From assembly GCA_000621985.1 (NCBI GenBank), contig JHWW01000002.1, positions 1-64,000 of the forward strand: a stretch of 64,000 nucleotides of DNA. Direction: 5' to 3'. Of the stretch, positions 7,656 to 43,919 are shown one piece after another. The number at the start of each line of letters is the position of its first letter. Position 1 is the stretch's first letter. The position numbers and the translations under genes are program-made. The notes under the pieces were generated by a model. That model was not told where the DNA came from. It saw only the letters and a list, made by a program, of their open reading frames with translations, and did not search any database. The DNA is from Lachnospiraceae bacterium V9D3004 (GTDB lineage Bacteria; Bacillota; Clostridia; Lachnospirales; Lachnospiraceae).

Positions 7656-9410
7656 ATGACGCAAAAAAAATACCGGTTTACTGACATTGACGGGCTTAGG
7701 TCGGTCATAGGATACATTCAAGGTGATGAAGATTATAAGAGTGCATCGGGAGTGTTGTTTCAGCTTTATAATCCGCGTTTGAATATTGACGAGGAAGTGA
7801 TGGTTGAGATAATTAGTAACGCTTTCCCGGATGCATGTATTACAGGCGTGACTTCGGCCAATATTGCCGGCGATAAGCTTGATCTTGGTGAGTTCCCTGT
7901 TGAACTTTCCATGACATGTTTTAAGGAAACCACGCTTATTCAATATGATTTTGATATGTCACAGACAACTTCATTTGAAGCGGGAAGATATATGAACCGG
8001 GTTCTAGAAGAGCAGAGTGATATCAAATGTCTCCAGATAGTTTATGCATCAAACACCAATCCTGTAAGCACATTCATGAGAGAATTCAAACATCATCACA
8101 TACCAAAATTTGGTATCAAAGCCGGGCAGACCATTGTAAAAGAAAATCAGGCTCATGCGTATGGAAGAAAAGTATATGATAATGCATTTGTTGTGGTGGC
8201 ATTTATCAGCAGATCTTTGAAGATATATATGGATAATAATCTTGGGTGGACGCCTATCGGAATAGAAATGACACTTACCGAAACTACAAGAGATATAGTT
8301 ATAAATGAGATCGACAAGAGGCCTGCTGCCGAGATTTTTTCAAAATATCTGAAGGTAGCTACCAATGAGTATTTCGGGCAGAATGTCTGCGAATTTCCTT
8401 TGATCATAAAACGGAATAATTTCAAGATGGCCAGAGTTCCCGTGTCATGCGATGAAAACGGCTCTGTATATTTTACTTCGGATATACATAAAGGAGACCG
8501 GTTCAGATTGTCTTATGCAGACGCAAACAGGCTGATGTCACTGTCGGCGGAATCTGCGGACGAACTGAAAGAGTTTGAACCTGAAGCGGTTTATCTGTAT
8601 GAATGCGGTAACAGAGTGCGTTTTCTGGGGACTGATTTTTTAAAGGAACGAAATCTGTATCAGAAGAATCATCCAAACCTTTCGTCGGTGACAGGATTTG
8701 CGGAACTTTTTGTAACTCCCGAAGGTGAGGGAGGAGATCTGAACAGTACTTTGGTTGCCATAGGCTTAAAGGAAGATGAAAATGCTGAAGACAGGATAGT
8801 GATCAAAAGGTCAGCCAGCGAAGCGGACGACAGCGCATACAACAACGCTGAGATACCATTTATTGACAGAATCCTTAATTTTCTCGAGAGCACTTCAAAA
8901 GAACTTGACGCCCTTAATAAGGAGCTTGGCAAAAAGGTCTACACCGATCAGCTCACGCAGGTTTATAATCGTTGGGAACTTGAAAAGAAAGTACGCGAAG
9001 CTATCGATATATCCGATGAAAATCACAGATATGGATTGTTATTTATCGATATCGATCATTTTAAAGCGGTAAATGATAATTTCGGACATGACACAGGTGA
9101 TTCGGTTCTTTTGGGTGTTGCCAATATAATAAGAGATTTTCAAAAGGAAGGACATGCATTCGGCCGTTGGGGCGGAGAAGAATTCATATATGTTGTAAGG
9201 AATACCGATGAAAAAGAATTGACCGAGCTGGCGGAAAGCATAAGAAAGAGGATCGATGAAAACAGTTTTGTCACTGTAAGACATCTTACTATAAGTATAG
9301 GAATCACGCTTACGGAACCGGGGGATACGCCGGAAAGCTTCATTAAAAGAGCAGACAATGCGCTCTATGAGGCAAAGGAGACAGGCAGAAATAAAGTTGT
9401 GAAGATGTAG
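7656..9410 (+). CDS. FIST-domain sensory diguanylate cyclase (FIST_N-FIST_C-GGDEF)
   Basis: A soluble 584-residue protein. Residues about 40-230 match FIST_N (FPDACITGVTSANIAGDKLD; HHIPKFGIKAGQ), about 235-375 FIST_C (SKYLKVATNEYFGQNVCEFP), and about 425-584 a GGDEF cyclase domain with an intact RWGGEEF active loop and LLFIDIDHFKAVNDNFGHD. The RxxD product-inhibition site expected five residues before GGEEF is absent (KEGH instead). FIST domains are believed to bind small ligands such as amino acids; so this should make cyclic-di-GMP in response to a metabolite. AGGAGGGG precedes ATG 7656. The SDR gene follows by 18 bp and may be co-transcribed. A related FIST protein with an EAL output lies at 35570. 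Confidence 0.88.
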   Translation: MTQKKYRFTDIDGLRSVIGYIQGDEDYKSASGVLFQLYNPRLNIDEEVMVEIISNAFPDACITGVTSANIAGDKLDLGEFPVELSMTCFKETTLIQYDFDMSQTTSFEAGRYMNRVLEEQSDIKCLQIVYASNTNPVSTFMREFKHHHIPKFGIKAGQTIVKENQAHAYGRKVYDNAFVVVAFISRSLKIYMDNNLGWTPIGIEMTLTETTRDIVINEIDKRPAAEIFSKYLKVATNEYFGQNVCEFPLIIKRNNFKMARVPVSCDENGSVYFTSDIHKGDRFRLSYADANRLMSLSAESADELKEFEPEAVYLYECGNRVRFLGTDFLKERNLYQKNHPNLSSVTGFAELFVTPEGEGGDLNSTLVAIGLKEDENAEDRIVIKRSASEADDSAYNNAEIPFIDRILNFLESTSKELDALNKELGKKVYTDQLTQVYNRWELEKKVREAIDISDENHRYGLLFIDIDHFKAVNDNFGHDTGDSVLLGVANIIRDFQKEGHAFGRWGGEEFIYVVRNTDEKELTELAESIRKRIDENSFVTVRHLTISIGITLTEPGDTPESFIKRADNALYEAKETGRNKVVKM

Positions 9411-35476: not shown

Positions 35477-35569
35477 TGAAAAAAACGAATATATGAATAG
35501 AACAGTGATGAAATATGTGTTATAATTATATGATACCTGTTTGAAATGTCTTATAGGGGGGAGCAGTAT

Positions 35570-38179
35570 ATGTTTACATGGAATTTTCAATATGTTTCCA
35601 AAGCAAAGCTTGCTGATACATTTAATCAGTTAATGCTTAATTATCATAAAGGAGATATTCTTATACGTATCCATACAGCCATTCATCTTGAGGAAGAGGC
35701 TGTCGAACTTGCACGCTTCATTAAGAATATTGTTCCCGGTGCGCAGATATTCGGAACAAGTACATCCGCTGTCATTAACTGGGGAAGAGTGGCAAGAAAC
35801 CAGTGTGTTGTATCGGTTACGCAGATGTCGGGAGGTCATGTGAAAGCCATGCTGCTTCCCACATATGACGAAGAGGGAAGAGTTCCGCTTCCGGTTGATA
35901 CATTATGTAAGAATGTAAAAGATGCTGTGATCGATGAGGATACGAAGCTGATGCTCACATTTCTCACCGGCAAATACCAGAATGTATATAAGTTTGTTGA
36001 ACGATGTAATGATTACTTCCCCGGAGTCCAGATGATAGGAGGGCTTGCCAATACTTCCGATATCAATCTGAGAAAATTCCTTGATTCGGGTTTTGTATTC
36101 AATGAAAACGGCTGGTCGGATAAAGGAATAGTACTTGCCGCGATAAGCGGAAAGAATGTGGAAAGCTACAGTTCTTACGCGACTGGCGTACAGGTTATCG
36201 GTGAAGAACTCGAGATAACCGACACATTCGGTACCTGCATTCTGTCCATTGACGGAAAAGATGCGGCAACGGAATACCGAAGGGGCGTAGGCGACGAATT
36301 AAAGGAACGGCCGGAACTAACGAATCTTTTCCCGTTTGTATATTCGGATGCCGCCGATATACCGATATTCGTAAGATTCTCCGATGATCATAGTATCAAT
36401 GATGTATTTCCGGAGGATAACCCGGTTAATGATGAAGCGTACAAAAAGCATCCCGGAATAGACGGTACAAAAAAGATTGAGATGATCAACGCCAATCACA
36501 ATGTGGAAGTTGGCAAAAAGATCAAGAGAGCATTCATATATGATGGAAAGATAATCTCTGACAACAGGGCATTGTTCAGACGAATTGAGAACTTCGAAAA
36601 AGCCGAGACGATATTCGGCTATTCATGTATTGCAAGATCAATGATATATTCCAACTGCGTTAAGTGGGAGTTGTCCGCGTATGAGAATTCCAATATGTGC
36701 GGCTGTATCACCGAAGGTGAGATAGCTCATATGAACGGAAAGAATACATTTGCAAACTGTTCTTTCGTTGTGTCGGTCATGGGTGAGGAAGAAGCTACGC
36801 AGGAATACAATCCATATGTTTTTTCGCACACGGATTCGCTGTCAAATGATAATCAGGAACTCATCAGGTATCTTATGGATATCGAGAGAAAGTTTGAGCA
36901 GAATGAGGATTCGGCTTCGGCAGACAGCCTGAAAGAATTCGTTAGAGACTGTGAGATCAAGCTGTTATATTCGGAGAATGAGGATATTCCGAATGCGGCA
37001 GCAATGAATATAGATATCAATCTCAGAGGTTATGACAGGATATGTATTATTAATGTTACGGATATCACGAGTATGAGGACTGTATTCTCCGAGCAGCAGA
37101 TACAGCTTACTTACAGGAATTATATCAATAAATGTTATGTATTTTCAAAGTCAAGAAATTATCACATGTACATACTCGATAACTGGCAGATAGCCATAGG
37201 AGCACCATCATATATGGTCTCACTTGATGAATTCGAGAATAATATGAAGCTGCTTCAGAAAGAATTATTCGAATATTCCGAAAAATATATAGCCATAGTT
37301 CCGATATTCTGTGTGATCAATGACTGTACTGTTGACAATTACAAGTCGCTCTATAATTCTGCAAGACTTGAAATGTTGAATAAGAATATTCAATTCCACG
37401 TTTGCGATTCAATGTCGGATCAGCTTGATGAGGACAGTATACGTGAAAGATATCACATGGTAAATGTGATCAATTATGCCATTGCAAATGACAGGGTTGT
37501 TCCCTATTTTCAGGGAATTCATGATAACAAGAAGAATAAGATACATCATTTTGAATCACTGATGCGTCTTGCGGATGAAAACGGTAAGATATATTATCCA
37601 AACAGCTTCCTTGATGTTGCCCGTTCATTCGGAATGCTGTACGATTCACTGTCAATGATCATGATCAGAAAGGTATTCGAAAAGTTCAGAAAAAGCGACA
37701 AGAGCGTAAGCATTAATCTTGGAATAAGAGACATAAAGAACAGTGAGATGCTTGAATATATATTTGACTTTCTTGCAAATGTCAGACATCCTGAGAATTT
37801 TGTCTTCGAGATACTTGAGAATGAGGACATCGGAGATTACGATATGATGGTAAGCTTCGTTAACAGGATCCATGAGCTTGGAGGTCTTGTATCAATAGAT
37901 GATTTCGGAAGCGGATATTCCAATCTGCAGCACATATTAAGTATAAGTTCGGATTTTATTAAGATTGACGGTTCTATCATAAAGAACTGCTGTGAGGATC
38001 ATGATTCGGAGAATCTGATCGCTCTCATAACCGGGTGGAGGAGTCTTAATTCCAGAAAGATCAAGATCATTGCCGAATATGTCGAGAATGAAAACATCCA
38101 GAATCTTCTCAAAAGTTACGGAGTGGATTATTCGCAAGGTTATCTTTTTGCTAAACCGACACCGGATATTGATGTCTGA
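35570..38179 (+). CDS. FIST - degenerate GGDEF - EAL protein
   Basis: An 869-residue soluble protein. Residues about 20-215 are FIST_N (GAQIFGTSTSAVINWGRVAR; YFPGVQMIGGLANTSDINLR) and about 215-400 FIST_C. Residues about 480-610 look like a GGDEF fold that has lost its signature (DRICIINVTDITSMRTVF ... NWQIAIGAP). Residues about 620-869 are an EAL domain: FESLMRL in place of EALxR keeps the metal Glu; SINLG, FEILEN, SIDDFGSGYSNL, FIKIDGS, IAEYVE and YSQGYLFAKP retain the other key positions, so hydrolysis of cyclic-di-GMP is plausible. GGGGGGAG favours ATG 35570 over 35546. The LacI-type sensor gene starts 14 bp after its stop. Confidence 0.85.
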   Translation: MFTWNFQYVSKAKLADTFNQLMLNYHKGDILIRIHTAIHLEEEAVELARFIKNIVPGAQIFGTSTSAVINWGRVARNQCVVSVTQMSGGHVKAMLLPTYDEEGRVPLPVDTLCKNVKDAVIDEDTKLMLTFLTGKYQNVYKFVERCNDYFPGVQMIGGLANTSDINLRKFLDSGFVFNENGWSDKGIVLAAISGKNVESYSSYATGVQVIGEELEITDTFGTCILSIDGKDAATEYRRGVGDELKERPELTNLFPFVYSDAADIPIFVRFSDDHSINDVFPEDNPVNDEAYKKHPGIDGTKKIEMINANHNVEVGKKIKRAFIYDGKIISDNRALFRRIENFEKAETIFGYSCIARSMIYSNCVKWELSAYENSNMCGCITEGEIAHMNGKNTFANCSFVVSVMGEEEATQEYNPYVFSHTDSLSNDNQELIRYLMDIERKFEQNEDSASADSLKEFVRDCEIKLLYSENEDIPNAAAMNIDINLRGYDRICIINVTDITSMRTVFSEQQIQLTYRNYINKCYVFSKSRNYHMYILDNWQIAIGAPSYMVSLDEFENNMKLLQKELFEYSEKYIAIVPIFCVINDCTVDNYKSLYNSARLEMLNKNIQFHVCDSMSDQLDEDSIRERYHMVNVINYAIANDRVVPYFQGIHDNKKNKIHHFESLMRLADENGKIYYPNSFLDVARSFGMLYDSLSMIMIRKVFEKFRKSDKSVSINLGIRDIKNSEMLEYIFDFLANVRHPENFVFEILENEDIGDYDMMVSFVNRIHELGGLVSIDDFGSGYSNLQHILSISSDFIKIDGSIIKNCCEDHDSENLIALITGWRSLNSRKIKIIAEYVENENIQNLLKSYGVDYSQGYLFAKPTPDIDV

Positions 38180-38193
38180 TACGGAGGTTTCTT

Positions 38194-39930
38194 ATGTATG
38201 ATGAAAAAAAGACGGTAATCGGATTTATGACGGATAACATATATTCCGATTTTGCCAAGGAGATCGCATCCAGTATCGTAAGAGCTCTTCCCCAGAACAG
38301 GAATATCAGGCTGATAATGATAGCGGGAATGAAAAACGAGAGCGAAGATGTGATGGATAATAAATATTGTTATGATCTGGTATACAATTCCATCTATCGC
38401 CTGACGGAAATGTGTAAGCTTGACGGGCTTATCATAACCATGGGAAGTAAAAGGATCGAGGATATTTACTCGGACACCCGGGCAGTGGATATTTTTAAAG
38501 ATATTCCCAAAGTATATATCTCATCATATTTTGATGATGAGATAACAGTCAATTACAATAATGAGACAGGAATAAGGGAAGCACTCAACTGTCTTGTTAA
38601 TGTCAATGGTTTTTCAAAGATATGCATGCTCGGAGGAAGAGAAGACCACAGGGATTCCAATGAGAGAAAACGTATTTTTATGAAATGTCTTGAGGAAAAC
38701 AGGATCACATTTCAGGAAAAGAATTATGAAAGAACCGATATGTCATCAAAGTGTCACGAAGCGGCAAGAAGGCTCCTTGACAACAATCCTGATGCGGAAG
38801 CAATATTCTGTGTTAATGATGATGTCGCAAAAGGATTATACGAAGTAATGGGTAAAAGAGGACTCGTGCCCGGAAAAGACATATATGTTTTCGGTTTTGA
38901 CAATACCCATTCGGCCTCGGAGATGTTGCCTTCGCTCACATCGATAGGTTCTGATGCAGATGCGATCGGACAAAAGGCCGTTAAGCTTTTGTTTGATAAG
39001 ATGAGCGGAAAAAAGGTAAGATCGGTAGTTCTTCCGACAAGACTTTACGGCAGGGATTCCTTCACATATCGGATGTATGAATATACTACCTTGGAGATGG
39101 TCAATGTAGATAAGGCTTTCATATACAGAATGTTCGATGACTGTTTCTACAGATACAGAGGTGACAGACCGGACAGGACTGCTATTAATCTCAGGCGTCT
39201 GTTTTTCGAATTCATATCCAGAATGCTGTATGCGATGAAGAAAAAATATATGGACGTGGAAGAATTCGAAGAGATAGGAAGAATGATCGACATATTCTTT
39301 GATAACGGTGCCATGGAATATACCGATGCGTCAAAGCTTATCGCAAGTATTGAGAAGTTGCAGGGAAGCGTGAACGGCATACAAAAATCAATTGCCGCAA
39401 ACGTCATGAACAACAGACTGTTCCTAAGAATGAAAGACAGGGCGATCAAGGCCCAGTGGAACACGAGAATAAAGGAAAAGACAATATACGCTGAGATAAG
39501 AAGGAATATGCAGGATTTCCTTGTTGAAACAATGGACTTCCAGAACGAGGAAGAGGAAGCACTTAACAATGTTGTAAAGAATTTCGGTAAGCTCGGACTA
39601 AGGAATGCCGCATTTTACATGTATGAATCAACGGTTGAATATAAATATGGAAAGAAAGCATCATTTCCGGGACTTATCAGGTTGAAATGCGTGACAAAAG
39701 GCGGAGAACTGTTCGTTATGTCAAGAGACAGGCAGGAATGCCCGGTCAGCAGCATCTTTCTTCGAGAAGAACTGTCGCCGTTATGTAAAGGATTCGTGGC
39801 ATTTCCCATATTCTATTGCCAATACATATACGGAATACTTGTATGTGAGCTTACAGCCGACATGATCGGAAACGGAGAATATGTAGCAGGACAGCTTGGA
39901 AGGGTGATTTATAACAACGTGAAACACTAA
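38194..39930 (+). CDS. Soluble LacI-type ligand-binding protein with C-terminal GAF-like domain, no HTH
   Basis: A 578-residue protein. Residues 1-290 match the periplasmic-binding-protein-like sensor of LacI regulators (VIGFMTDNIYSDFAKEIASS; CKLDGLIITMG; CMLGGREDH; AEAIFCVNDDVAKGLYEVMG; GKDIYVFGFDNT; PSLTSIGSDADAIGQKAVKL). There is no helix-turn-helix before it and no signal peptide. Residues about 300-420 are helical, and about 425-578 look GAF-like (NFGKLGLRNAAFYMYEST; FPIFYCQYIYGILVCEL). No GGDEF, EAL or kinase motif is present. It is probably a cytosolic sugar or metabolite sensor acting through a partner, most likely the FIST-EAL protein encoded 14 bp upstream. ACGGAGG precedes ATG 38194. 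Confidence 0.75.
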   Translation: MYDEKKTVIGFMTDNIYSDFAKEIASSIVRALPQNRNIRLIMIAGMKNESEDVMDNKYCYDLVYNSIYRLTEMCKLDGLIITMGSKRIEDIYSDTRAVDIFKDIPKVYISSYFDDEITVNYNNETGIREALNCLVNVNGFSKICMLGGREDHRDSNERKRIFMKCLEENRITFQEKNYERTDMSSKCHEAARRLLDNNPDAEAIFCVNDDVAKGLYEVMGKRGLVPGKDIYVFGFDNTHSASEMLPSLTSIGSDADAIGQKAVKLLFDKMSGKKVRSVVLPTRLYGRDSFTYRMYEYTTLEMVNVDKAFIYRMFDDCFYRYRGDRPDRTAINLRRLFFEFISRMLYAMKKKYMDVEEFEEIGRMIDIFFDNGAMEYTDASKLIASIEKLQGSVNGIQKSIAANVMNNRLFLRMKDRAIKAQWNTRIKEKTIYAEIRRNMQDFLVETMDFQNEEEEALNNVVKNFGKLGLRNAAFYMYESTVEYKYGKKASFPGLIRLKCVTKGGELFVMSRDRQECPVSSIFLREELSPLCKGFVAFPIFYCQYIYGILVCELTADMIGNGEYVAGQLGRVIYNNVKH

Positions 39931-39953: not shown

Positions 39954-39982
39954 TTGAAAATAAAAATCAGTTGTGATAGAAT
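39954..39982 (+). promoter_or_regulatory. glmM promoter
   Basis: TTGAAA (39954-39959), 17-bp spacer, TAGAAT (39977-39982), 34 bp before the glmM start. Confidence 0.7.
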
Positions 39983-40016
39983 AACTCTAATTGAGTATTT
40001 TGGAGGAAGTCAGGTA

Positions 40017-41372
40017 ATGAAGTATTTTGGTACAGACGGCTTCAGAGGAGAAGCCAATGTTACTCTTAATGTTATGCATGCATACAAGGTCGGAAGATTT
40101 CTTGGTAATTATTTCCAGAAGGGTGACGGAACAAGACCGGGTATAGTTATAGGAAAGGATACAAGACGTTCGAGCTACATGTTTGAAGATGCGCTGTCAG
40201 CCGGTCTTACGGCAAGCGGTGCGGATGTATATCTTCTTCATGTAACAACAACTCCCAGTGTATCTTATGTAGTAAGAACCGAAGGGTTTGACTGTGGTAT
40301 CATGATATCGGCCAGCCATAATCCGTACTACGATAACGGGATCAAGATCATCAACGGAATGGGACATAAGCTTGAGGCCGAAGTGGAAGAAAAGATAGAA
40401 GAATACATAGACAGCGAGACTGATACAATACCTCTTGCCACCAGAGATAATATAGGAAGGACTATAGACTATTCCATAGGAAGACACAGATATATAGGCT
40501 TTCTTATCTCACTTGCAAAGAGGTCATTTAAAGATAAGAATATCGCACTTGACTGTTCGAACGGTTCGGCATCGGCGGTGGCAAAGGGAGTGTTCGATGC
40601 ACTCGGAGCAAGAACGCACGTTATCAATGCGGAGCCGGACGGAACCAATATCAATAAGAACTGCGGTTCAACTCATATAGAAGTGCTTATGGATTATGTA
40701 AAGGAGATACGTGCCGATATCGGTTTTGCATTTGACGGTGACGCCGACAGATGTCTTGCCGTGGATGAAAACGGTAATCTCGTTGACGGCGATATGATAA
40801 TGTACATATGCGGCTGTTATCTCAGTGAAAGAGGAGAACTTGATAACAATACCGTTGTTACGACCGTGATGTCGAATATTGGTTTATATAAGGCATTCGA
40901 TGCCAAAGGAATATCATATGAGAAGACTGCCGTAGGTGATAAGTATGTATATGAGAACATGCTGGCCAATAATCACTCGCTCGGAGGAGAACAGTCGGGT
41001 CACATAATTTTCAGTAAATATGCGGCTACAGGTGACGGTATTCTTACCGCGCTCATGATAATGGAAGCAATGCTTGAGAAGAAGACAAGATTGTCGGAAC
41101 TTACCAAGGGATTAAGAATATACCCGCAGCTTCTTGTTAATGTCAGGGTTAAGGATAAAGTTGCGGCGCTTGAAGATGAGGATGTCATAAGGGCAGCGAA
41201 GGAAGTTGAAGAAGAACTCGGATCCGACGGAAGACTTCTTCTTCGTACAAGCGGAACAGAGCCTTTGGTCAGAGTCATGGTTGAAGCGGAGACAGAAGAG
41301 GACTGTAAGAAATATACAGGAAAGATCGTGGATGTTATTAAGAAAAACGGACACGAGGATGACACAGAATGA
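40017..41372 (+). CDS. glmM: Phosphoglucosamine mutase
   Basis: A 451-residue enzyme that converts glucosamine-6-phosphate to glucosamine-1-phosphate for UDP-GlcNAc and peptidoglycan synthesis. Features: KYFGTDGFRGEAN start; active phosphoserine in ISASHNPYYDNGIK; metal loop FDGDADRC; sugar loop GGEQSGHI; phosphate loop RTSGTEPLVRVM. GlmM is preferred over other hexosephosphate mutases because of the GTDGFRG opening and length. TGGAGGAAG upstream and this motif fix ATG 40017; an upstream in-frame ATG (39954) lies in the promoter. Confidence 0.92.
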   Translation: MKYFGTDGFRGEANVTLNVMHAYKVGRFLGNYFQKGDGTRPGIVIGKDTRRSSYMFEDALSAGLTASGADVYLLHVTTTPSVSYVVRTEGFDCGIMISASHNPYYDNGIKIINGMGHKLEAEVEEKIEEYIDSETDTIPLATRDNIGRTIDYSIGRHRYIGFLISLAKRSFKDKNIALDCSNGSASAVAKGVFDALGARTHVINAEPDGTNINKNCGSTHIEVLMDYVKEIRADIGFAFDGDADRCLAVDENGNLVDGDMIMYICGCYLSERGELDNNTVVTTVMSNIGLYKAFDAKGISYEKTAVGDKYVYENMLANNHSLGGEQSGHIIFSKYAATGDGILTALMIMEAMLEKKTRLSELTKGLRIYPQLLVNVRVKDKVAALEDEDVIRAAKEVEEELGSDGRLLLRTSGTEPLVRVMVEAETEEDCKKYTGKIVDVIKKNGHEDDTE

Positions 41373-41416
41373 TAATATGATGATTCCGAAGAGTTTGTTT
41401 TGACGGAGGATGATCA

Positions 41417-42571
41417 ATGAGAGAAGGCGCATTTAAGACAGGCAAATACCGTAATGTATTTGCGGAACTCGGAATAAGCCAGACCGATATAGATAAGAAG
41501 ATCAGGGATTCTTTTCATACGGTATTCTATGGAAATGATGATGAGAGATTCTTCCATACCGTGGGAGATGACATGGGTTATTTCGAGGATACCGGTAATA
41601 ATGATGCAAGAACCGAAGGCATGTCATACGGAATGATGATGTGTGTCCAGATGGATATGAAGGAAGAATTCGACCGTTTCTGGAAATGGTCGAAGACATA
41701 TATGTTTAATCCCGAAGGTAAGCATAAGGGATACTTTGCATGGTCATGCAAGACAACCGGAGAAAGAAACAGCGACGGTCCCGCACCTGACGGAGAAGAA
41801 TTCTATGCAATGGCGCTGTTCTTCGCATCCCACAGATGGGGTGACGGAGAAGGGATATTCAATTATTCTAAAGAGGCAAGGGAGATTCTTCATGCAGCGA
41901 TCCATAACGGTGAAGACAATGAAGCAAGACCCATGTGGAGAAAAGATAACCATCTGATAATGTTCGTTCCGGGAAGTTCATGGACAGATCCGTCTTATCA
42001 TCTGCCACATTTTTATGAATTATTCGCATTATGGGCCGATGAAGAAGACAGACCTTTCTGGAAAGAGGCAGCAAAGGCGAGCAGGGAATATCTTAAGACA
42101 TCATGTCATCCGGTTACGGGACTTGCACCGGAATATGCAAATTACGACGGAAGTCCTTATGTCGGTGATGAGAATTTTCTGAAATGGTTCGGCAGCAGAC
42201 ATGACTGGTTCTACAGTGATGCATACAGGGTTGCTGCCAATATAGGACTTGATTACGAATGGTTTGCCGCAGATGAATGGAACTGCGACAATGCCGATAA
42301 GATACAGAAGTTCTTCAGCGAGAATGTTCCGGACGGTAATTATATGACTTATGAGATAGACGGAACGGTGATAGATAAACCGGCGCTTCATCCGGTGGGG
42401 ATCATAGCAACCAATGCAATGGCTTCACTTGCTGCGAAGGGCGAATATGCAAAGGAATGGGTAAGACTGTTCTGGAATACGCCTCTTAGGACCGGCGTCA
42501 GAAGATATTATGACAACTGTCTGTATCTGTTTGCGCTACTTGCGCTCAGCGGAAACTACCGTATATGGTGA
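41417..42571 (+). CDS. GH8 reducing-end xylose-releasing exo-oligoxylanase
   Basis: A 384-residue (alpha/alpha)6-barrel glycosidase of the Rex branch of GH8, which trims xylose from the reducing end of short xylo-oligosaccharides. The general acid is Glu67 (ARTEGMSYGMMM), the subsite motif PAPDGEEFYAMALFFASHRW is intact, and the likely base is Asp268 (FYSDAYRVAANIGLDYEW). There is no signal peptide, consistent with cytosolic action on imported oligomers. CGGAGG precedes ATG 41417. It lies 44 bp after glmM; other xylan genes are not in the window. Confidence 0.9.
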   Translation: MREGAFKTGKYRNVFAELGISQTDIDKKIRDSFHTVFYGNDDERFFHTVGDDMGYFEDTGNNDARTEGMSYGMMMCVQMDMKEEFDRFWKWSKTYMFNPEGKHKGYFAWSCKTTGERNSDGPAPDGEEFYAMALFFASHRWGDGEGIFNYSKEAREILHAAIHNGEDNEARPMWRKDNHLIMFVPGSSWTDPSYHLPHFYELFALWADEEDRPFWKEAAKASREYLKTSCHPVTGLAPEYANYDGSPYVGDENFLKWFGSRHDWFYSDAYRVAANIGLDYEWFAADEWNCDNADKIQKFFSENVPDGNYMTYEIDGTVIDKPALHPVGIIATNAMASLAAKGEYAKEWVRLFWNTPLRTGVRRYYDNCLYLFALLALSGNYRIW

Positions 42572-42583
42572 AAACCTTACGGA

Positions 42584-42613
42584 TTAGAATATTTTATATA
42601 TAATTAATATAAT
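42584..42613 (+). promoter_or_regulatory. tig promoter
   Basis: TTAGAA (42584-42589), 18-bp spacer, TATAAT (42608-42613), 19 bp before the tig start. The -35 is weak; no CIRCE or CtsR-like repeat is visible nearby. Confidence 0.5.
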
Positions 42614-42632
42614 GCTTTAGGAGGAATTAAGA

Positions 42633-43919
42633 ATGAGTTTAAAGGTTGAGAAGTTGGAAAAGGGAATGGCAAAGCTTACTATAGAGGTTTCGGCTGAGAA
42701 GTTTGAAGAAGCCATGAAGTCAGCATATAAGAAGAATGCCGGCAAATATAATGTGCAGGGATTCCGTAGGGGCAAAGTTCCTATGAAAGTCATCGAGAAG
42801 ATGTACGGACCGGAAGCATTCTATGAGGATGCTGCCAATATAATCATCCCGGATGCGTATGAAGAGGAGCTTAAAGACAGTGATGTTGAGCCTGTTGCAA
42901 GACCGACAATTGATGTTGAGCAGATTGAGAAAGGCAAATCTTTCATATTCACAGCTACCGTAGCTATCAAGCCGGAAGTAAAACTCGGACAGTACAAGGG
43001 AATAGAAGTAGAGGTTGAGAAAGCAATCGTTACGGAAGATGATATAATGAATTCCCTTAAGGAAGAGCAGGAGAAGAATGCAAGTATCGAGACTGTTGAA
43101 GACAGGGCAGCCGAACTTAATGATACTGTTACTATCGACTTTGAGGGATTTGTTGACGGTGAGGCATTTGAAGGCGGAAAGGGAAGCGATTATCCGCTTG
43201 TTCTCGGCAGTCATTCATTTATCGATACATTCGAAGATCAGCTTGTTGGCAAGAATGTAGGCGACGAAGTTGATGTCAATGTAACATTCCCTGAGGATTA
43301 CCATCAGGATTCACTTGCAGGCAAACCTGCATTGTTCAAAGTAAAGGTTAACAAGATCGAGCAGAAGATCCTTCCTGAGATCGATGATGAGCTTGCTCAG
43401 GATGTATCCGAATTTGATACACTTGATGAATACAAGGCTGATATCAGAGCAAAGCTTATGGAGAAGAAAGAGAATGAGATCAAGGCCGGTAAGGAAGATA
43501 AGGTTATAGAGAAGATCATCGAAGGTGCCGAGATGGAGATCGCTGATGATATGATCATGGCACAGGTTCAGAATATGATGAGAGAATATGCACAGAATCT
43601 TCAGATGCAGGGAATCAATTTCCAGCAGTATATGTCGCTTACAGGCAATACACCGGAGAAAATGACAGAGCAGCTTAAGCCGCAGGCAGAAAAGCGTATC
43701 AAGTCAAGACTTGTGCTTGAAGCGGTTGCAGCAGCAGAAGAGTTTGATGCTACCGATGAGGAGATTGATGACAAGATCAAAGAACTTGCCGATATGTACG
43801 GTATGGAGATCGACAAGGTAAGAGAGACTTTCGGTGAAGAAGGAATCAAACAGATGAAGGAAGACATCAAAGTTGAGAAAGCTGTTGATTTTGTAAGAGA
43901 TTCAGCTAAAGAGATCTGA
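42633..43919 (+). CDS. tig: Trigger factor
   Basis: A 428-residue ribosome-associated chaperone and prolyl isomerase. The ribosome-binding loop is in VQGFRRGKVPMKVIEKMYG (about 42-60); the FKBP domain spans about 150-240 (NDTVTIDFEGFVDGEAFEGG; LVLGSHSFIDTFEDQLVG); the rest is the helical arm domain. TTAGGAGG precedes ATG 42633. Heads the tig-clpP-clpX-lon-engB cluster, a gene order conserved in Clostridia. Confidence 0.96.
   Translation: MSLKVEKLEKGMAKLTIEVSAEKFEEAMKSAYKKNAGKYNVQGFRRGKVPMKVIEKMYGPEAFYEDAANIIIPDAYEEELKDSDVEPVARPTIDVEQIEKGKSFIFTATVAIKPEVKLGQYKGIEVEVEKAIVTEDDIMNSLKEEQEKNASIETVEDRAAELNDTVTIDFEGFVDGEAFEGGKGSDYPLVLGSHSFIDTFEDQLVGKNVGDEVDVNVTFPEDYHQDSLAGKPALFKVKVNKIEQKILPEIDDELAQDVSEFDTLDEYKADIRAKLMEKKENEIKAGKEDKVIEKIIEGAEMEIADDMIMAQVQNMMREYAQNLQMQGINFQQYMSLTGNTPEKMTEQLKPQAEKRIKSRLVLEAVAAAEEFDATDEEIDDKIKELADMYGMEIDKVRETFGEEGIKQMKEDIKVEKAVDFVRDSAKEI

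Follow-up and report, generated by a model that had tools for sequence, protein, structure and literature searches.

Two adjacent genes in a stretch of 64,000 nucleotides from Lachnospiraceae bacterium V9D3004 (contig JHWW01000002.1, positions 1 to 64,000; the whole stretch is hereafter called the window) encode a predicted phosphodiesterase for the second messenger cyclic di-GMP (c-di-GMP), built of FIST, degenerate GGDEF and EAL domains, and a LacI-fold receptor in which no DNA-binding helix-turn-helix (HTH) domain is recognised. We judge, with modest confidence, that the products of these genes, here called gene 1 and gene 2, form one signalling unit in which the ligand-gated receptor would act in trans on the phosphodiesterase. 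The initial annotation, made from the letters of the window, had proposed such a unit and had named the c-di-GMP enzyme as the natural partner of the sensor. Our main argument that this enzyme is indeed the natural target is that a cyclase domain proves to be optional in the pair, being fused to the sensor at the same locus in 15 of 73 complete copies, whereas the adjoining phosphodiesterase is constant. Given that most copies of the sensor have no output domain that can be recognised, it probably controls the enzyme encoded next to it.

Conservation of the gene pair

When named genomes were scanned with the N-terminal part of gene 1, 99 relatives were found, the best 80 of which serve as the gene-1 loci of this study. 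At 78 of the 80, gene 2 lies immediately 3' of gene 1 on the same strand, with a median gap of 15 bp (range -26 to 78) and with the two genes touching or overlapping in 11 of these 78; such recurrence is more than chance would produce. Among the gene-2 copies at these 78 loci, six are short: five are truncated at contig ends and one (locus L140) is ended by an early stop. Gene 2 (E < 1e-150) was detected in five of 348 genomes of the family. These five are also the ones with a close gene 1 (E < 1e-200), and in each of them the two genes adjoin in the same order. In a class-level sample of 391 genomes, which overlaps the former, three contain both genes and none contains a single one of them (E <= 1e-100 and E <= 1e-60); in one genome, G593, which belongs to another family, the two matches are separated by 27 bp. 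The initial annotation had staked its proposal on whether the genes stay linked in relatives; they largely do, and its treatment of the two as one unit holds across many genera.

The pair is conserved in many rumen Clostridia. The source labels of 63 of the 80 loci (such as rumen, omasum, RUG, RGIG, SIG and RUI) were taken as rumen or ruminant gut, the last four being series codes that we assume to denote such an origin, and the remaining 17 are mostly genome bins with no stated source. By NCBI family the loci fall to Lachnospiraceae (30), Oscillospiraceae (24) and Eubacteriaceae (4), with 22 assigned to none, and they include Ruminococcus albus 8 (L088) and Eubacterium xylanophilum (L103). 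In a sample of ten genomes of the genus, a gene-2 orthologue is present only in the genome of the window; in eight of the other nine congeners nothing nearer than distant LacI-fold proteins was matched (best E 6.8e-21), and the ninth gave no match. The genome-wide search for gene 1 among congeners covered one genome, G007. Gene 1 of the window is 70-72% identical to several Ruminococcus proteins and about 60% identical to many Lachnospiraceae ones. Given this resemblance and the lack of gene 2 in the sampled congeners, the simplest reading of the sequences is that the pair may have moved as a cassette between families.

Purifying selection acts on both genes. The ratio of nonsynonymous to synonymous substitution rates (dN/dS) ranges from 0.04 to 0.22 for gene 2, computable in 12 of 13 close pairs, and from 0.05 to 0.17 for gene 1 in all 13, although several dS values exceed 1, which makes them rough. 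The possibility that gene 2 is a pseudogene is rejected by this selection together with the conservation of the gene. Evolutionary distances of gene 1 and gene 2 correlate (r = 0.76, 72 pairs), which we do not use as proof of contact because linked genes share their history. Residues specific to the paired clade fall in the helical part (6), the ligand domain (4), the coiled coil (3), the GAF-like domain (3) and the hinge (1) of gene 2, and are too few for mapping an interface.

Domain make-up of sensor and enzyme

Pfam matches of gene 2 above cut-off are to periplasmic-binding and LacI ligand domains only; Pfam recognises neither a LacI HTH nor an output domain in the copy of the window, and a scan at E <= 0.01 found the LacI HTH in 0 of 73 members, which sets these proteins apart from LacI-family transcription factors. 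An AlphaFold2 model built from natural alignments (mean predicted local distance difference test score, pLDDT, 88; predicted template-modelling score, pTM, 0.84) begins with a complete LacI-type ligand domain, consisting of two lobes and a conserved pocket; its listed Foldseek matches are the CelR-cellobiose complex, LacI and its ancestor, RbsR, PurR, CcpA and their kin. There follow a helical part, one long helix (residues 400-446) and a small alpha/beta domain. We call this last domain GAF-like on the basis of its predicted order of secondary-structure elements, which is that of GAF/PAS domains; it has no Pfam match, and the 50 fold matches shown are all LacI-type. Five residues, N123, R158, N208, D209 and D236, are at least 92% conserved among 72 gene-2 sequences. 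We take these to be sugar-pocket positions from their known roles in LacI, and their retention makes a sugar or a similar polyol-like compound the likely ligand. A periplasmic solute-binding protein would be expected to have a signal peptide or a lipobox, whereas in a hydropathy scan none of 79 gene-2 copies has a hydrophobic N-terminus (a 19-residue stretch above 1.6 on the Kyte-Doolittle scale within the first 60 residues). The ligand is therefore probably cytosolic. In these respects the protein is what the initial annotation had described, namely a cytosolic LacI-type ligand fold without HTH.

The description of gene 2 as a sensor without an output applies to most of its complete copies. 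The ligand domain is present in all 73 complete proteins, of which 58 have no recognised output domain and 15 carry a C-terminal GGDEF domain. Those without GGDEF include deep branches and keep their full length. Parsimony requires four gains or losses of the domain inside the paired clade, on a quick tree for which long branches are a concern and support is given by SH-aLRT alone. The fused C-termini are of several types. In type A (L082, L083 and L089) the GGDEF domain is joined directly, while in types B and C (the L105 and L110 groups) it follows a PAS-like segment, and L161 represents a further type. Compared with the GGDEF domain of an outgroup of eight LacI-fold-GGDEF proteins (755-776 amino acids), the fused domains have median identities of 27-33%. 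Types B and C may share one old fusion with later losses, since identity is about 47% between their GGDEF parts and about 40-44% between their sensors. Type A is about as near to the outgroup GGDEF (median 33%) as to those of types B and C (29%), and it is possible that its domain was inherited. The dissimilarity of the fused C-termini speaks against simple vertical loss of a single ancestral GGDEF, and repeated fusion to the sensor appears likely from these comparisons. Two fused copies have altered motifs, GGDEV in L161 and DGDEF in L121, and the latter (L121:3250-5910) is perhaps a gene 2 in which the cyclase domain is again being lost.

These same data could be read in the opposite direction, with gene 2 acting chiefly as half of a cyclase/phosphodiesterase pair of opposed activities and its GGDEF-less copies being degraded relics that near loss. 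The presence of GGDEF in 15 of 73 copies would agree with this, as would the direct (L082 group) GGDEF, which is as close to that of the outgroup as to any other, and the finding that 22 of 25 wider-family relatives that were read have a GGDEF-type motif, the other three having GGDEY or SGDEF. However, the 58 GGDEF-less copies, deep branches among them, retain full length and are under purifying selection (12 of the 13 tested pairs are GGDEF-less, 11 of these being computable for gene 2), and therefore we regard the relic explanation as very improbable.

Gene 1 was matched by Pfam to FIST and EAL, and marginally, just below the cut-off, to FIST_C. Its model (AlphaFold2, natural alignments) has a mean pLDDT of 87 and a pTM of 0.62, and sequences from 79 of the 80 further loci were aligned with the protein of the window, to which they are 51-72% identical. 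Foldseek aligned gene 1 with the GGDEF-EAL tandems of DosP, PA0861, PA0575, MorA and LapD, several over about 420 columns, which supports a GGDEF-like fold for the otherwise unassigned middle part. Given that Pfam finds no GGDEF match in gene 1, and that a search found a GGDEF-like motif in 0 of 80 gene-1 proteins, this part is by motif not an active diguanylate cyclase. The initial annotation had called it a dead GGDEF, with which the predicted fold and the missing motif agree; it is likely a regulatory or dimer domain.

The EAL domain has the expected fold and the full expected catalytic set. Residues E670, N724, E755, D785, D786, K806, E844 and Q864, to which we assign catalytic roles by assumption from the EAL literature, are invariant among 80 aligned sequences. 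The motif of the window reads ESLMR, which fits ExLxR, and the E, L and R of that pattern (E670, L672 and R674) do not vary among the 80 sequences. The initial annotation was correct in reading ESL in place of EAL. As a departure or lesion the feature does not stand, given that ESL is the usual form in the family (61 of 80 proteins, with EAL in 17 and two unmatched by the search string) and that the catalytic residues are invariant; a catalytic defect is thus rejected. These residues also bear on whether gene 1 is a hydrolase at all. It might instead be a c-di-GMP receptor whose binding is tuned by gene 2, in the manner of LapD and FimX, and structures of both proteins are among its structural matches. 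However, LapD and FimX are regarded as c-di-GMP receptors that lack several EAL catalytic residues, whereas gene 1 has all of those expected, invariant in 80 sequences, and we consider a pure receptor role distinctly unlikely.

Several observations weigh against a unit formed by gene 1 and gene 2. One locus (L101) has a solo gene 1, although its genome holds a second, complete pair elsewhere, and in another (L097) gene 1 sits on one contig and a gene-2 orthologue on a different one, each close to the contig end; both exceptional genomes thus carry a gene-2 orthologue. Gene 2 was not seen in the available flanks of seven distant FIST-EAL proteins (29-35% identical), two of which (L063 and L077) lie at contig ends. 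Two wider-family GGDEF-less sensors (L172:7682-9493 and L173:8662-10374) have no adjoining EAL-like gene in the stretch read, and such cases imply that a missing output alone does not point to a FIST-EAL partner. Furthermore, co-transcription without contact would also hold the genes together.

In another explanation, one operon supplies parallel inputs. The two proteins would be co-expressed without contact, and gene 2 would pair, for example as a heterodimer, with full-length receptor-cyclases of its LacI-GGDEF family elsewhere in the cell. The genome does encode related LacI-fold-GGDEF proteins (e.g. L008), and the solo GGDEF-less sensors away from EAL genes in other genomes would fit the same idea. 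However, the three best paralogues of gene 2 in its own genome are only 22-24% identical to it, and at 78 of 80 loci gene 2 remains next to gene 1 despite changing neighbours. We hold parallel inputs to be unlikely, though worth keeping in mind.

Control of the enzyme by the sensor, the reading we favour, would proceed as follows. We infer direct binding of the two proteins, the class of ligand, the direction of control and the activity of the enzyme from the features above. Gene 2 would act as a receptor, soluble and cytosolic, that closes on binding a small and probably sugar-like ligand. The resulting change would pass along its helical part and its GAF-like domain to gene 1, where it would alter the rate at which the EAL domain hydrolyses c-di-GMP. 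The FIST domain of gene 1 may provide a second input; its residues H43 and H47 are 99% conserved among 72 sequences, and FIST domains elsewhere have been described, in excerpts of the published accounts, to bind heme and nitric oxide (NO) (PMC12570481, PMC8846402). In species with a GGDEF-bearing gene 2, an opposed cyclase/phosphodiesterase set would be placed under one receptor. A broader version of this proposal is offered tentatively, and we think it rather doubtful as a whole: the pair may be a widespread and exchangeable split receptor of rumen fibre degraders that integrates a soluble sugar, or a similar metabolite, with the FIST input and sets c-di-GMP in trans or also through a fused cyclase.

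Gene coordinates and genomic surroundings

The coordinates and the 14-bp spacing of the initial annotation are correct, with gene 1 stopping at 38179 and gene 2 starting at 38194 (Table 1). The longest mechanical open reading frame of gene 1 opens at 35546, and its residue numbers are counted from there. The most likely start is the ATG at 35570, which is preceded by GGGGGGAG, resembling a ribosome-binding site, and which begins the conserved sequence MFTWN, giving 869 codons. Gene 2 (578 codons) is preceded by a similar element, ACGGAGG.

Table 1. Positions of the two genes and of their predicted domains in the window.
Feature	Position	Strand	Basis
Gene 1: FIST / degenerate GGDEF / EAL, predicted c-di-GMP phosphodiesterase	35570..38179	+	Pfam FIST and EAL, alignment, fold model (pLDDT 87)
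FIST N domain	35696..36259	+	PF08495, E 2.8e-20
FIST_C domain	36482..36730	+	PF10442, E 2.4e-6, 28.1 bits against a cut-off of 28.5
Degenerate GGDEF-like domain without GGDEF motif	36995..37411	+	Predicted elements 484-622, Foldseek, motif search
EAL domain	37469..38158	+	PF00563, E 1.4e-46; invariant catalytic columns
Gene 2: LacI-fold receptor without HTH, signal peptide or recognised output	38194..39930	+	Pfam, fold model, hydropathy
LacI/periplasmic-binding-protein ligand domain	38212..39048	+	PF13377, E 9.2e-22; Foldseek; conserved positions
Helical linker and long coiled-coil-like helix	39109..39531	+	Predicted helices between 307 and 446
GAF/PAS-like C-terminal domain	39532..39924	+	Alpha/beta elements 453-577; GGDEF fused behind it in other species

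The surroundings of the pair vary between loci, the commonest neighbour family being a generic ABC ATPase near 17 of the 80. Flanks of up to 10 kb were read, often cut by contig ends, with at least 3 kb available upstream in 52 of 80 loci and downstream in 56 of 80. Searches of these flanks at the protein and DNA levels, with positive controls, found no homologue of sbcC, sbcD, glmM, GH8, tig or clpP. In the window itself, glmM, GH8 and the trigger factor gene form a block at 39954-43919. The three occur together in eight of nine congeners, where the stretch fetched contains no pair (1.3 kb upstream of glmM in L178 and at least 6.7 kb in the others), and the ninth has glmM without GH8; the block is thus kept independently of the pair. 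The initial annotation had taken GH8 and glmM as a sign of sugar sensing. That clue to the ligand is rejected, since neither gene has a homologue in the flanks read at the 80 loci and the block is free of the pair in eight congeners.

Downstream of the pair, Pfam revealed no functional theme in 51 of 68 listed genes, except for an AI-2E-family transporter in 7 of the 51. A membrane-protein-like family lies just 3' of the pair on the same strand at ten loci (L112, L129, L137-L139, L141-L143, L152 and L160). It is probably this AI-2E-family transporter, and is a possible hint to the ligand from one clade.

The host genome is rich in c-di-GMP enzymes, with 41 matches to GGDEF, of which 39 exceed the cut-off, and 14 to EAL. 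A FIST protein of 584 amino acids with the highest-scoring GGDEF of the genome is encoded at 7656-9410 of the window. A gene for an EAL protein, which also matches GGDEF weakly, lies about 2.6 kb from a lone FIST gene of about 400 amino acids (C2:91204-92457 and C2:95075-95638), and the two may constitute a second FIST/phosphodiesterase unit. The same genome has a LacI-fold receptor fused, as read from the sequence, to an apparent histidine kinase and receiver in an 848-residue frame (L006, C2:235078), so that this type of sensor there has another output. In another locus (L080:2129-8074), a distant FIST-EAL gene is followed by a TPR-GGDEF gene (1116 amino acids), which is a different sensor-cyclase neighbour.

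Significance and comparison with known systems

The pair represents a compact, apparently soluble two-protein system whose receptor, ligand and enzyme are open to study in vitro. Because sensors with and without a fused GGDEF occur beside the same phosphodiesterase, this natural series makes a change of sensor target in evolution testable. If the sensor does act on the enzyme, a LacI-fold regulator would be aimed at a second-messenger enzyme and not at DNA. If the split-receptor proposal were also true, the pair would be a two-input coincidence switch that governs attachment to plant fibre.

We did not find this pair described in the open-licence papers of PubMed Central (PMC) that were searched, nor, among those papers, a cytosolic LacI-type receptor as the conserved operon partner of a FIST-EAL enzyme. 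Trans-acting sensors of c-di-GMP enzymes are already known, including NspS-MbaA, the H-NOX partners and EIIAGlc. In the NspS-MbaA system of Vibrio cholerae, with homologues in Sinorhizobium, a periplasmic-binding-protein receptor controls a c-di-GMP enzyme, as far as excerpted accounts of it describe, and in this it resembles what we propose for our pair. The gene order and the GGDEF-EAL make-up of NspS-MbaA count among the likenesses. NspS itself resides in the periplasm, and its target is a membrane protein. In contrast, both proteins of our pair appear to be soluble proteins of the cytosol, and their receptor is of LacI type and has a helical part and a GAF-like domain. In Shewanella woodyi and Legionella, excerpts of a published account describe H-NOX proteins as stand-alone sensors of a separate cyclase or phosphodiesterase (PMC8846402), again as proposed for the pair. 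The H-NOX sensor responds through heme to NO, whereas gene 2 has a LacI fold instead.

Gene 1 resembles CdpA of V. cholerae, a phosphodiesterase that combines FIST-FIST_C and EAL in one protein and that is inhibited by heme, according to portions of the same source (PMC8846402). The likeness is one of domain make-up, and those portions mention no LacI-type partner of CdpA. They also count Periplas_BP among the putative and little-known sensors of c-di-GMP proteins (PMC8846402). Gene 2 can be compared with EIIAGlc of V. cholerae, which the available text of another report presents as a soluble sugar-metabolism protein that regulates a phosphodiesterase (PMC6877527). Unlike gene 2, EIIAGlc is a protein of the phosphotransferase system and not a LacI-type operon partner. 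The closest architecture for the sensor is that of the LacI-fold-GGDEF receptor-cyclases of the family to which the window belongs, whose full-length matches are 21-30% identical to gene 2. In contrast to these receptor-cyclases, most copies of gene 2 are without a GGDEF domain and occur linked to a FIST-EAL gene.

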